From NCBI GenBank assembly GCA_030765585.1, contig JAVCCJ010000113.1:1-50837 (forward strand): a stretch of 50,837 nt of DNA. Reading direction: 5' to 3'. Source of the stretch: Candidatus Zapsychrus exili. Lineage in GTDB: Bacteria; Omnitrophota; Gorgyraeia; Zapsychrales; Zapsychraceae. The position numbers and the translations under genes are program-made. Within the stretch, counting starts at the first letter, position 1; every line of letters begins with the position of its first letter. Shown in pieces: positions 41,782 through 50,837 of this stretch. A model generated the notes under the pieces. That model ran no database searches. It was not told the origin of the DNA and saw nothing but the letters and a program-made list of their open reading frames with translations.

Positions 41782-43284
41782 TTAAATCCTCGGAGCCTTT
41801 CCGATCATATAAAAGTCTTCTTTCTTCATACGATCGTAATCACCTGCTATAATTTTTGCGCAACCCTCAACATTATCCTCAATTGATACATATTCTCCTT
41901 TTTTACCAGTAAAACCCTCAGTAACATGAAACGGTTGAGTCATAAAATTATATAACTTTTCTGCTCTTAGAAAAATATTCTGATCTGTTTCACTTAACTC
42001 GTCAACACCAATAACAGCAACAATTCTTTTTAAACCATTATGTTTGTTAAAATGCACCAAAACTTCTTGCGCAATATCATAATGTCGACGACCTACAACA
42101 ACAGGATCTAAATTCGTAGAAGAACTAATCAAAGGATCTATCGCAGGATACATGCCGCGCTGTACAAGATCACGAGATAAAACAATAGAACCATCCAAAT
42201 AACTAAAAATAGCAACAACAGCTGGATCTGTCATATCATCAGCAGGAACATAAACCGCTTGAAAAGCTGTAATAGACCCCCCACCCTCAACAGAACGTAT
42301 TCTTTCCTGAACAGCACTTATTTCTGATGCTAATGTTGGCTGATATCCTGTTTCAGCTGGAACACGACCCAATAAAGTTGATATCTCTTGACCACCTTGA
42401 ATATATCTATAAACATTATCCATAAAAAGAAGTACATCCTTATTTTTTCCTTGTAGATACTCTGCTAAACATAGCCCTGAAAAAACAACTTCTGCTCGCA
42501 TTCCTGGCGGCTGATCCATTTGACCAAATGTCAACATAACATTATCAAGAAGATTACTCTTCTTTAATTCATAATACAATTCATTTCCTTCTCTAATGCG
42601 TTCACCTATACCAGCAAAAACGCAAACTCCACCATGAGCCTTAACAATATTATTAATCAATTCCAAAATAACAACCGTCTTACCACAACCAGCTCCTCCA
42701 AGAATTCCAGTTTTACTTCCCTTAACTAAAGGAAATAAAAGATCAAAATACTTGATACCTGTTTCAAATATTTCCGGCTTCTCAGGTTTTTTATTTTTTA
42801 AATTAAATCCAACAAACTTTCTTAAGCCCTTAATTGGAACACGTTCAGGACAATCAAATTCTCCTTTATTATCAAGTGGTCTACCTGTTGCATCCATAAC
42901 GCGAGCAAAACATCCATCACCCATAGGAATCGTAATAGGCTGACGCGTATTAAAACAATCAGAATTAAGCTGAACATTTAATGTATCCATTAAAGCTACT
43001 GTTCTTACAATATTGTTCGAAAGATGCTCTGCTGTTTGTAAAGAAACTTTTCTTCCATCTACGGCTTCAACCTCAATCATATCAAACAACACAGGCATAT
43101 CTTCTTCTTTATCAAACCAACAATCAACAACAGGGCCCTGAACGGAAATAATCCTGCCGCGACCTTTATTAATTTCCTTACTCTTTATTTCTTCTTGAGC
43201 TACAGGCTTTTTATCTTCGCCTTGATTAATATCAAGATTTTCTTGATCTTTATTATTATTTTGTTTTATATCATCATTTTCCAA
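41782..43284 (-). CDS. F-type ATPase beta subunit-like, catalytically intact
   Basis: 500 aa. A polar ~45-residue N-terminal extension (Asn/Asp/Glu/Lys-rich) precedes the canonical fold (normal beta ~460 aa). All catalytic elements are seen: P-loop GGAGCGKT (~195), catalytic Glu in GERIREGN, the Walker B strand [23 protein letters not shown], the adenine-loop region [12 protein letters not shown], and the DELSE lever. It should hydrolyse or make ATP in an alpha3-beta3 ring. It is the last ATPase gene of the cluster, 50 bases after gamma and 2 before gspE. Beta at the end and alpha at the start is neither the standard atpBEFHAGDC order nor the N-ATPase order. Confidence 0.9.
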
Positions 43285-43334
43285 AGCTTAATCCTTTCAA
43301 AAACATTCCTGTCTACCAACAGGCAATCTTTATT

Positions 43335-48737: not shown

Positions 48738-50837
48738 TAGTCACTCTCAAACCAAGTCTTTATTATAATTTCACTTTCAGTTACAGATTCTTTTATCGCT
48801 GAAATCTTAGCATCAATTTCCTCTAGTTTTTCATTAACCTTCTCAGAGTCTTGTCTTTCCTCTTCCACTAACTTCTTAACCTTAAGACCTAGACCTAACG
48901 AATCTGCGCTTTGATTTACCAATTCTCCTAATATATCCATCATCTCAACAGCTGTTGATTGAGAATCGCTGCTCATATCTGATATTTCATATACAACCGC
49001 TTCTATTTCACTTAAAGCTCCCTCTAGATCATCAACTTTTGTATAGAGATTTGGTGTTTGTCCGTCTATACCTAAATCTGTCTTTATTTCCTGAATGATG
49101 CTCAACGCAGAATCTGCACTTTGTTTGCCTTTGTTAGCATTTTCATTGATATTATTTAAACGCCCAAATACTGAGTCTGCTGTTTCTGCATCGCCAGCAA
49201 CACCTGTTAAAGCTTCTAGATTGTTTAAATCACCAAATATTGTTGAGTCAGCAGAAGTATCGGCTTCATCGCCTAATACGCTCTCTATAGTTGTTACCTT
49301 TGTTAATATAGTTCTTATATCAGTACCACCAACAGCGTCTTTAACATCAGCGATTTTTCCAAACAATGTACTTGACGCAGAAGTATCAGATGATGTACCC
49401 ACTAAACTATTGATAGTGTTTACAACGCTTAATATAGTAGTGACGTTTCCAACAAGAGCCTGTGCATTATCAGCAAAATAATTTAATCCATCCCAGTTGA
49501 TATTCTTACTTGTCATATCAGCTAGATCACTCCAATTGATATTAGAAGTAGTTGATGCTGCCATATCTTCCCAGTTCATTCCAGTTCCTGACATATAAGA
49601 TATATCAGCCCAATTTATTCCAGATGCTGACATTGAAGCTATATCGTCCCAATTAATTCCGGTTTCACTAAGAACTGTAATCTCATCCCAGTTTATGCCA
49701 GCTGCTGACAATTCTCCAAAATTATACCAATTAGCTCCAGCGCTGCTTAACACACCTATATCATCCCAGTTAACACCTGTTTCGCTCATCACATCTATAT
49801 CGTCCCAATTAATTCCAGCATTAGATAGAGATCCTATATTGTCCCAATTGATTCCAGCGTCGCTCATATCATTAATGCCTTCCCAATTAACGCCAGCATC
49901 ACTTAGATCTTTTATTTCTACCCAATTTACACCTGCTGCAGATAGTTCTGCGAAATTATACCAATTTGCTCCAGCACCACTTAACACTCCTATATCGTCC
50001 CAGTTAATTCCTGTTTCTGTTAAAACTTCTATATCTTCCCAATTGATTCCAGCGCCTGATAGTTCTCCAATGTTTGTCCAATTGATTCCAGCGTCGCTTA
50101 AAGAATTAATATCTTCCCAATTAATTCCTGTGTCTGACATAATGTCGATATCGGACCAATTAATTCCTGCATCAGACATATCTCCAATACTTGTCCAATT
50201 AATACCACTACTTGACATGTTTCCTATATTAGACCAATTAATGCCTGTATCTGACAATACATCAAAGTCAGACCAATTAACTCCTGCATCTGAAAGAACA
50301 TCTAAATCAGACCAATTAATTCCGGCGTCACTCATTACATCAAAATCGGACCAGTTAATACCAGTTTCAGTTAGCGCTCTTATATCATCCCAATTGACAC
50401 CTGCGTCTGAAAGTACATTTATATCTTCCCAATTAACACCAGCTACTGATAATCTTCCAATATCGTCCCAATTAATACCTGTATCTGAAAGAACATCTAT
50501 ATCAGACCAATTAATTCCTGCAGAAGACATGTCTCCAATGCTTGTCCAGTTGATACCATTACTTGACATATTTCCTATATTAGACCAATTAATGCCTGTA
50601 TCTGACAATACATCAAAGTCAGACCAATTAATACCAGTTTCACTTAACGCTCTTATATCATCCCAATTAACACCTGCGTCTGAAAGAACATTGATGTCAT
50701 CCCAATTAACACCTGTATCTGAAAGAACATCTATATCAGACCAATTAATACCAGTTTCACTTAACGCTCTTATATCATCCCAATTAACACCTGCGTCTGA
50801 AAGTAGATTTATATCTTGCCAATTAACACCAGCTTCG
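48737..50837 (-). CDS. Asn-Trp 13-residue repeat protein (5' truncated by window edge)
   Basis: Open from the window edge (codon phase at 50836); any internal TTG such as 50608 is not the true start. The first ~455 visible residues are at least 35 perfect-length 13-residue repeats, consensus [ST]-x-x-G-[IV]-N-W-x-[DN]-[IF]-x-x-[LM]. The last ~247 residues are Ser/Asp-rich with three units of a STxFGxL type and long heptad-like helices, probably a coiled-coil stalk. There is no enzyme motif. The N-terminus, and therefore any signal peptide, is outside the window. The gene overlaps the next by one base (TAATG). It may be a fibre or elongated scaffold of the ATPase-linked machine; function is unknown. 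Confidence 0.7.
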   Translation of the reverse strand, partial: EAGVNWQDINLLSDAGVNWDDIRALSETGINWSDIDVLSDTGVNWDDINVLSDAGVNWDDIRALSETGINWSDFDVLSDTGINWSNIGNMSSNGINWTSIGDMSSAGINWSDIDVLSDTGINWDDIGRLSVAGVNWEDINVLSDAGVNWDDIRALTETGINWSDFDVMSDAGINWSDLDVLSDAGVNWSDFDVLSDTGINWSNIGNMSSSGINWTSIGDMSDAGINWSDIDIMSDTGINWEDINSLSDAGINWTNIGELSGAGINWEDIEVLTETGINWDDIGVLSGAGANWYNFAELSAAGVNWVEIKDLSDAGVNWEGINDMSDAGINWDNIGSLSNAGINWDDIDVMSETGVNWDDIGVLSSAGANWYNFGELSAAGINWDEITVLSETGINWDDIASMSASGINWADISYMSGTGMNWEDMAASTTSNINWSDLADMTSKNINWDGLNYFADNAQALVGNVTTILSVVNTINSLVGTSSDTSASSTLFGKIADVKDAVGGTDIRTILTKVTTIESVLGDEADTSADSTIFGDLNNLEALTGVAGDAETADSVFGRLNNINENANKGKQSADSALSIIQEIKTDLGIDGQTPNLYTKVDDLEGALSEIEAVVYEISDMSSDSQSTAVEMMDILGELVNQSADSLGLGLKVKKLVEEERQDSEKVNEKLEEIDAKISAIKESVTESEIIIKTWFESD
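49475..50837 (-). repeat. Array of 39-bp tandem repeats encoding the NW motif
   Basis: 35 visible copies (the first partial) without any length change, all in frame. DNA identity between some blocks is high: copies 1-4 and 10-13 after 50608 match at a nine-copy offset, and a block near 49740 matches one near 49970 at a six-copy offset. This pattern indicates growth by duplication of multi-copy blocks. Confidence 0.9.

Follow-up and report, generated by a model that had tools for sequence, protein, structure and literature searches.

Rotary ATPases with an F1-like head and no subunit a have been described from mycoplasmas. According to the accessible portions of PMC3369863 and PMC12994834, the alpha subunit of the type 3 ATPase (F1-like X0) lacks the N-terminal helix, surface proteins act as partners of this ATPase, which occurs with MIB-MIP, and a protein with a signal peptide and a C-terminal transmembrane segment (TM) is encoded directly before alpha; its clusters contain a 12-TM protein but lack b, delta and any known F0 homologue. 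In the type 2 ATPase of Mycoplasma mobile (G1), as presented in the accessible portions of PMC11864180 and PMC12994834, an F1 head is combined with large surface proteins and a mechanical output has been proposed, the motors being dimeric and arranged in intracellular chains; c and b-delta are absent from the seven cluster genes listed in PMC12994834. Within Omnitrophota, Seymour et al. 2023 (PMC10066038, accessible in part) described a ‘symbiotic’ F-type ATPase adjoining type 4a pili, placed its alpha subunit with mycoplasma types 2 and 3 and proposed a role in attachment or motility. The pairing of ATPase and pilus is already published in that work, where giant ORFs are handled separately from the ATPase/pilus locus; its accessible text, within a literature scope of openly licensed PubMed Central, makes no mention of a missing subunit a, of the two-domain protein and C-terminal tail described below, or of the loss of the c carboxylate. 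N-ATPases form a further described group, with the gene order beta-epsilon-two small genes-a-c-b-alpha-gamma. The T9SS/GldLM gliding motor of Bacteroidota is a rotary inner-membrane motor, driven by proton-motive force, that serves both secretion and the movement of giant adhesins; we know of no sequence relationship between it and the ATPase considered here. A preprint by West-Roberts reportedly deals with giant genes. That preprint is cited in the accessible text of PMC12057145.

The window analysed here, a stretch of 50,837 nucleotides from Candidatus Zapsychrus exili, is one entire contig, the end of which falls within the gene of a giant NW-repeat protein (NW). An initial annotation had listed NW, a two-domain membrane protein (TD), alpha, epsilon, two c subunits, a b-delta fusion, gamma and beta in this stretch, and every one of them was recovered in that interval on the minus strand, followed by genes of a type II secretion/type IV pilus (T2SS/T4P) operon:

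48737..50836, minus strand: giant surface protein with NW repeats, of which the last 699 aa are encoded here, the 5' part of the gene falling outside the contig
47406..48737, minus strand: TD, two-domain membrane protein (hydrophobic profile and AlphaFold model)
45754..47391, minus strand: alpha subunit that retains the P-loop and Arg finger and has an acidic C-terminal extension
45447..45722, minus strand: epsilon subunit, beta-sandwich domain only (PF02823, 7.9e-12)
45208..45426, minus strand: c1 subunit with RNP loop and Glu in TM2 (PF00137, 6e-10)
44970..45197, minus strand: c2 subunit, divergent, with PC motif in TM1 and Glu in TM2 (below cut-offs)
44194..44943, minus strand: b-delta fusion with a single TM, a coiled-coil-like middle part and only the C-terminal domain of OSCP (PF00213, profile 100-165)
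43335..44186, minus strand: divergent gamma subunit carrying a DIDKSLRExFSARMM-type signature at its C terminus (PF00231, 1.3e-23)
41782..43284, minus strand: beta subunit with intact catalytic motifs (above the TIGR01039 cut-off at 524.8 bits)
39560..41779, minus strand: GspE/PilB-type ATPase (domain content: MshEN, T2SSE, PilZ)
38341..39549, minus strand: GspF/PilC platform protein
35667..38175, minus strand: GspG pseudopilin, two more proteins with an N-methylation motif, and GspK
33518..35575, minus strand: PilM/PilN fusion and PilO-like protein (PilO 21.1 versus 22, just below the Pfam cut-off)

The genes from NW to beta occupy positions 41782-50836 of the minus strand with intergenic gaps of 2-50 bp, and the stop codon of NW overlaps the start codon of TD as TAATG, in agreement with the translational coupling claimed earlier for this pair. 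Exactly the gene order of the window occurs in 29 of the 57 Omnitrophota loci examined. These 29 loci come from 29 other genomes, so the order is not a product of chance, and the unusual arrangement noticed at first is real. A gamma-based search of genome contigs returned 44 loci, 43 of them with Omnitrophota, Omnitrophica, Omnitrophus or Aceula in their titles (Aceula belonging to Omnitrophota) and one titled only ‘bacterium’; since this search used only two gamma peptide patterns, distant relatives in other phyla would escape it. TD lies within 8 kb of gamma at 98 of 150 gamma places among the matches listed. Most of the loci examined were picked by a TD or gamma match, which partly builds in the co-occurrence of these two there; the counts given below for GspE, subunit a, the tail and the carboxylate are not built in this way.

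The ATPase genes combine well-preserved and reduced subunits. Pfam cut-offs are passed by alpha, beta, gamma, epsilon, c1 and the OSCP part of b-delta, while the b part of b-delta (PF00430, 11.8 versus 28 bits) and c2 (PF00137, 14.7 versus 24) score below them; c2 has two hydrophobic segments with the Glu in TM2, and b-delta has one N-terminal hydrophobic segment. The P-loop and the catalytic Glu/Arg motif of beta are identical in 31/31 rows, and the TGKT motif and Arg finger of alpha are retained in 33/33. Alpha subunits of the NW type lack the N-terminal helix, having 8-12 residues (19 in one case) ahead of an anchor that is preceded by 28-43 residues in canonical Omnitrophota alpha. The window thus displays the F-type features of alpha, beta and gamma with intact catalytic motifs and of a TM2 carboxylate on c (a Glu in both c1 and c2), and lacks subunit a, the alpha N-terminal helix and a full delta, only the C-terminal OSCP part of which is present.

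How does this ATPase relate to the described families? NCBIfam scores of alpha and beta are highest for general F-type models. In trees of alpha and beta, which had been proposed for comparison with F-, N- and mycoplasma type 3 ATPases, both subunits fall into a group separate from the F- and N-ATPases, the two kinds that the trees cover. Assignment to the N-ATPases was rejected, as the scores lie below the NCBIfam alternate F1F0 cut-offs (alpha 448.3 versus 750.5; beta 451.6 versus 752; b 36.8 versus 224.7) and the gene order differs. The likeness to N-ATPases consists in a b subunit with a delta-like end, TIGR03321 aligning over most of the length of b-delta with a score below the cut-off; in contrast, three N-ATPase plasmid operons all contain subunit a, have another order and belong to a separate tree group, and two of the three are also annotated with AtpZ/I and I genes. 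Mycoplasma type 2 (MMOB1660/1670: alpha 378 versus 600; beta 424.4 versus 850) and type 3 (MSC_0619/0618: alpha 281.1 versus 520; beta 393.5 versus 570) were likewise rejected by their NCBIfam cut-offs, and no mycoplasma X0 family appeared in NCBIfam scans of 34 TD rows (25 of 57 families listed) and of 15 gamma rows (among the families listed). The link to mycoplasmas drawn in the initial annotation holds as an analogy and not as membership of these families.

With type 3 the window shares the a-less F1-like head, the shortened alpha and the surface protein partners, as far as the accessible portions of PMC3369863 and PMC12994834 describe them; compared by description, TD also resembles the type 3 pre-alpha protein in architecture and gene position. 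Unlike type 3, the window cluster has c, c and b-delta and no 12-TM protein. Type 2 resembles it in the F1 head, the large surface proteins and the proposed mechanical output, and differs in the dimeric motors and their intracellular chains (PMC11864180 and PMC12994834, in part). The likeness to the ‘symbiotic’ ATPase extends to the phylum, the non-respiratory alpha group, the co-location of pilus genes and the suggested part in attachment or motility: alpha of the window stands apart from the canonical F-ATPase of the phylum and beside pilus/T2SS genes, and loci of the window type are very probably those of Seymour et al., judging from the accessible part of PMC10066038.

The reported lack of subunit a was borne out at both scales. 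The F-type subunit a (PF00119) has no match in the whole source genome (a 129-contig draft, 96% complete) and none at any of the 57 cluster loci, against 19/19 F- and N-type control loci; nor is there room between the cluster genes of the window for an additional a, I, Q or R gene, which upholds the absence of AtpI, AtpQ and AtpR from the locus. The genome-wide search recommended earlier did find a second ATPase, a V/A-type cluster on contig 59 that includes I and K subunits of its own, but no F-type subunit a. At 5 of the 57 related loci the ion-binding carboxylate, read from the aligned column, is gone from all detected c subunits, compared with 0/15 canonical F-type loci. The other 52/57 have at least one c subunit that retains the TM2 carboxylate, and the ring may therefore still bind ions or need this residue structurally. 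Without subunit a the output would be mechanical; taken with the V/A-type ATPase, the conserved order, the separate alpha/beta group, the intact motifs and the carboxylate loss in some relatives, the missing subunit favours an output other than ions.

A conserved a-less cluster set between the genes of a giant surface-fibre protein and its likely anchor and those of a secretion/pilus machine suggests an ATP-driven mechanical motor of the cell surface. We tentatively favour, with a little less than even confidence, an ATP-driven motor that is uncoupled from ions and acts through TD on the giant fibre. Such a dedicated rotary ATPase, descended from the F-type ATP synthase, would hydrolyse ATP without ion coupling: the F1 head (alpha, beta, gamma and short epsilon), held by b-delta, would turn gamma and the membrane c-ring, and the mechanical output would be taken up by TD, a putatively periplasmic two-domain protein with one TM beside the ring. 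TD would in turn transmit force to the secreted, giant NW fibre, which would dock on TD by its conserved KTWFES-type tail. Carrying or threading the fibre across the outer membrane would fall to the T2SS/T4P-like machine encoded alongside. Such a cell could use ATP to push, pull or turn its giant surface fibres when attaching to other cells or moving on them. The mycoplasma type 2/3 ATPases, with their pre-alpha protein that has a signal peptide and a C-terminal TM, set a precedent. We infer the assembly of the complex, its rotation, the transmitting role of TD, the docking of the tail and the movement of the fibre from the genes and their arrangement.

The repeat of the supposed fibre is regular. 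The window part of NW contains 35 repeats, 34/34 intervals between them being exactly 13 aa, and ends in a predicted helical region and the terminal tail IIKTWFESD; its structure prediction, with a mean pLDDT of 46.6, is too uncertain to be informative. A complete homologue in a related genome (G045) has 10,958 aa and, judged by eye, an apparent signal peptide. The tail is common to 45/47 ORFs that precede a separate TD gene, matches that are not independent because many of these ORFs are orthologous, and occurs in 0/420 other ORFs by a pattern defined after inspection of the tails. The background ORFs were mechanically called and include antisense frames; loci L141 and L143 were dropped as duplicates of L159 and L044 (with them, 2 matches of 422). 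TD itself (AlphaFold model, mean pLDDT 85.2) consists of two domains, both made up of beta strands and then helices, and a single C-terminal TM with a basic end, its N-terminal hydrophobic segment being read as a signal peptide. These two hydrophobic segments are found in 32/33 rows, the exception being the window TD, in which 371-389 forms a borderline third segment. TD is proposed to be the inner-membrane anchor of the fibre. Elsewhere TD is not separate but fused into giant ORFs.

Could the same machine serve export rather than movement? An a-less rotary ATPase might power the secretion, threading or assembly of the TD-docked giant proteins along a route of T2SS-like system and secretin, with the C-terminal tail as a recognition tag and no surface movement; we regard this as possible but doubtful. 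It is the main rival, and a serious one because the GspE gene, which begins the T2SS/T4P operon 2 bp past beta, directly follows beta at 49/49 testable loci. The initial idea of a rotary or force-transmitting surface machine finds partial support, favoured in its non-ion output and contested in its action on the surface. The operon supplies E, F, pseudopilins and L/M-type proteins (G, K and PilM/N among its genes, the PilO-like protein falling just below the cut-off), and upstream of NW in G045 lie a secretin and two FGE-domain proteins; no secretin was found on the window contig, which stops inside NW. The tail before TD in 45/47 cases would suit a recognition tag. The single-contig genome G160 has two TD/large-protein pairs and one gamma match, a ratio that a shared exporter would explain. 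Against export, GspE already serves as the ATPase of such systems, and ordinary T2SS and T4P, to our knowledge, do without an F1-type ATPase. Two points weigh against the motor: the GspE/F neighbourhood is no better suited to movement than to export, and in G160 over 1 Mb separates one of the pairs from the ATPase cluster.

An ion-pumping ATPase, its c-ring completed by a very divergent subunit a, by TD itself or by a canonical or V-type stator encoded elsewhere, appears unlikely. The retained b-delta stalk and the carboxylate kept at most loci would fit a pump, as would the canonical subunit a found elsewhere in the genome in 65/92 relatives. However, PF00119 lies inside a canonical atp operon at the 14 Omnitrophota loci where its surroundings were inspected and gives only a single match in 191/196 positive genomes. 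Genomes with a gamma match but without any PF00119 number 11/34 (E<1e-99), 18/56 (E<1e-59) and 58/139 (E<1e-37), G160 among the last; these counts come from tables of every matching genome, mostly drafts, and a radically divergent subunit a could evade PF00119. The five losses of the carboxylate also speak against a pump. At position 416 within the TM of TD, 70% of 33 rows carry a basic residue (His among those shown; the window has Asn), and 91% have Lys at position 400, so that a residue facing the ring Glu may exist; a complete replacement of subunit a by TD is nevertheless unlikely, its hydrophobic profile being that of one C-terminal TM and not of a multi-helix stator. The ordinary cellular ATP synthase, with subunit a simply missing from a draft assembly, is very improbable and was ruled out by the 0/57 loci with subunit a, the V/A-type ATPase, the separate alpha/beta group and the canonical-operon location of PF00119.

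If the motor reading is true, it would trace a route from a rotary ATP synthase to a machine working outside the cell, give a concrete hypothesis for the anchoring and use of Omnitrophota giant proteins, make TD and the C-terminal tail a sequence tag for finding such proteins, and open the function of these unusual F-ATPases of Omnitrophota to testing. More speculatively, and with considerable reservation, an F-type rotary ATPase may have kept its ring and shed ion coupling (no subunit a, carboxylate lost at least two times) to become an ATP-driven mechanical motor for fibres of up to ~11,000 residues in a secretin-bearing Omnitrophota cell. This would add another F1-derived surface motor to the mycoplasma types 2 and 3, and a docking code of tail and TD would enable one motor to serve several giant proteins.

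The GspE start 2 bp past beta and the termination of the contig within NW are both additions to the initial annotation. The fold of TD gave no Foldseek match at E <= 0.001; its helical part, in a similarity that may be merely that of a common helical bundle, aligns with Fap1-NRa at a VIA-align Z of 10.1 over 86 residues.

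What could an ATPase gene cluster without subunit a do beside a giant surface protein? Our tentative answer, to which we give a little less than even credence, is a rotary motor driven by ATP and uncoupled from ions, the force of which would pass through TD, a two-domain membrane protein and proposed anchor, to NW, a protein of 13-residue repeats and proposed fibre. The source genome is a 2.04-Mb draft of 129 contigs (96% complete), the window being one entire contig, and the genes in question are as follows.

41782-50836, minus strand: NW, TD, alpha, epsilon, c1, c2, b-delta (b fused to a delta/OSCP part), gamma, beta
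39560-41779: GspE/PilB-type ATPase with a C-terminal PilZ domain, through which it may be under cyclic di-GMP control
downstream of beta, minus strand: GspE, GspF, GspG, two N-methylation-motif proteins, GspK, PilM/N, PilO-like protein

Intergenic gaps in the ATPase cluster are 2 to 50 bp, the NW and TD genes overlap (TAATG), and 2 bp separate the end of beta from the start of GspE. NW shows 35 repeats in the window, with all 34 intervals equal to 13 aa, and continues past the contig end. Contigs of many relatives stop within or close to this gene, as at window 50836, which is expected if the repeats break assembly.

Matches to TD, either whole or to one domain, come from 54 of 92 relatives and 155 of 384 phylum genomes; for 98 of the 150 gamma matches listed, TD lies on the same contig and no more than 8 kb away (3.4 to 5.9 kb). 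Gene order was examined in detail at 57 cluster loci. The complete order NW-TD-alpha-epsilon-c-c-b-delta-gamma-beta-GspE occurs at 29 of them, each from another genome; a further group has one detected c, and in a second arrangement epsilon, c and b-delta stand ahead of alpha, with TD separate or within a giant ORF. No TD was found at one cluster locus, L170. At L051 (related genome G048, contig 14, 3942-6880), two alpha-like genes follow each other, one on a long branch. GspE lies immediately downstream of beta at 49/49 cluster loci with a full beta and enough sequence (three loci cut too short are left out) and at 0/16 canonical F-type loci. This neighbourhood would suit the main rival explanation, a T2SS-like machine through which the fibre is exported or assembled, no less than the motor; we hold the rival to be a serious one, of somewhat lower probability.

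The absence of subunit a bears directly on the proposed ion-uncoupled motor. The family of subunit a, PF00119, has no match in the whole source genome (a 129-contig draft) and matches 9 of 14 control genomes. PF00006 marks five places, namely alpha and beta of the window, the A and B subunits of a V/A-type ATPase, and Rho. The V/A-type cluster includes E, A, B, D, I and K-type subunits. PF00119 is present in 65/92 relatives and 196/384 phylum genomes (a single match in 191), and at 14 Omnitrophota loci examined it lies within a canonical a-c-b-delta-alpha-gamma-beta-epsilon operon; in a few of these delta or c is undetected or epsilon located elsewhere. The gamma profile, the weak end of which also picks up canonical gamma, matches 205 of the 384. 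PF00119 is missing from 11/34 gamma-matching genomes at E < 1e-99, 18/56 at E < 1e-59 and 58/139 at E < 1e-37 (single-contig G160 included). These counts indicate that the cluster does not rely, as judged from gene content, on a recognisable subunit a, although drafts make up most of the genomes surveyed. Subunit a is found at 0/57 cluster loci and at 19/19 F- and N-type loci.

Scored in one common alignment, the TM2 carboxylate of subunit c is present at 15/15 canonical F-type loci where a c was detected; Glu occupies the column in 51/60 c1-type and 26/32 c2-type cluster copies. No carboxylate is left at five cluster loci (L050 Q, L167 V, L168 Q, L169 Q, L175 A). In the alpha tree four of these group with one another and L050 stands apart, next to L165, which keeps E, so at least two separate losses are likely. 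There is sequence evidence that ion binding would be dispensable in part of the cluster family. Such losses do not imply that the window ring is uncoupled, because both c1 and c2 retain Glu. At L060 (related genome G015, contig 26, 4496-5190) there are three successive c-type genes, the middle one with Val for the TM2 Glu.

The complete NW gene of a relative, G045, encodes 10,958 aa with an apparent signal peptide and some 800 repeats that contain W; upstream of it lie genes for a secretin and for two FGE-domain proteins. TD comprises two domains, with one C-terminal TM segment in most rows. The ORF directly ahead of a separate TD gene carries a KTWFES-type C-terminal tail in 45/47 cases (exceptions L049 and L050), many of these ORFs being orthologous and thus not independent. 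The pattern, [VIA]x[TSNAEQGH][WYF][FLMY][EH] within the last 25 residues, was composed after inspection of the tails, and occurs in 0/420 other ORFs at least 350 aa long, a mechanical background that includes antisense frames. TD also lies within ORFs of 2597 to 3195 aa at five loci (lengths inside the piece examined) and, among the matches listed, in open frames as long as 11,907 aa. G160 has a TD gene of single-domain size behind each of two large proteins, the frames of which (3245 and 4552 aa) begin with a signal-peptide-like stretch; the ATPase-GspE-GspF cluster is about 16 kb from the second of these proteins and >1 Mb from the first. The two loci, L178 and L171, are on contig 1, at about 1,759 kb and 665 kb. 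These giant ORFs and the two pairs suggest that TD accompanies large surface proteins in general, and one ATPase may serve more than one of them. At TD residue 416 (gene at window 47406-48737), inside the C-terminal TM segment, 70% of 33 rows have a basic residue, which is His in those displayed; the window has Asn there. Through this conserved polar position TD may contact the ring residue directly.

In beta, 31/31 rows share the same P-loop and catalytic Glu/Arg motifs, and alpha keeps TGKT in 33/33 and SVSRVG in 32/33 (SVSRTG in the remaining row). The alpha N-terminus has 8-12 residues (19 in one row) ahead of an anchor at E. coli position 29 in NW-type rows, 9 to 26 in fused-type rows, and 28-43 in canonical Omnitrophota. 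Window delta consists of the C-terminal OSCP region only, and epsilon of the beta-sandwich only. Among NCBIfam models, beta scores best with TIGR01039, above cut-off; alpha scores best with PRK13343 (526.4, below the cut-off of 554) and passes TIGR00962 (489.1 vs 484.45), and no window subunit reaches the N-type, type 2 or type 3 cut-offs. In trees made by a quick method with SH-aLRT, the other rows of which were canonical Omnitrophota together with two F-type and three N-type references, all 39 alpha and all 38 beta cluster rows form one group each (support 100), distinct from those others.

The proposed motor has its closest precedents in the mycoplasma type 2 and 3 F1-like ATPases (PMC3369863, PMC12994834, PMC11864180), in which a signal-peptide protein with a C-terminal TM is encoded immediately ahead of alpha and the partners are surface proteins. 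In the portions of Seymour et al. 2023 (PMC10066038) available to us, the 'symbiotic' alpha of Omnitrophota is grouped with mycoplasma types 2/3, these ATPases lie next to type 4a pili (57/66 contigs within 10 kb), giant ORFs are reported separately from them, and no mention is made of the lack of subunit a, of TD, of the tail or of the loss of the ring carboxylate.

Elsewhere on the contig, window 5724-13271 encodes four secreted-looking paralogues with, by eye, a common N-terminal region and cysteine-rich repeats of the CGDGxCDxxE kind. Large proteins of 1041 and 1798 aa (469-3594 and 21560-26956) have, also by eye, a similar N-terminal region, the latter with a long, differing C-terminal part. 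A trypsin-like protein (27298-28041) adjoins a hydrophobic protein of 837 aa (28070-30583), which we take to resemble an STT3-type oligosaccharyltransferase.
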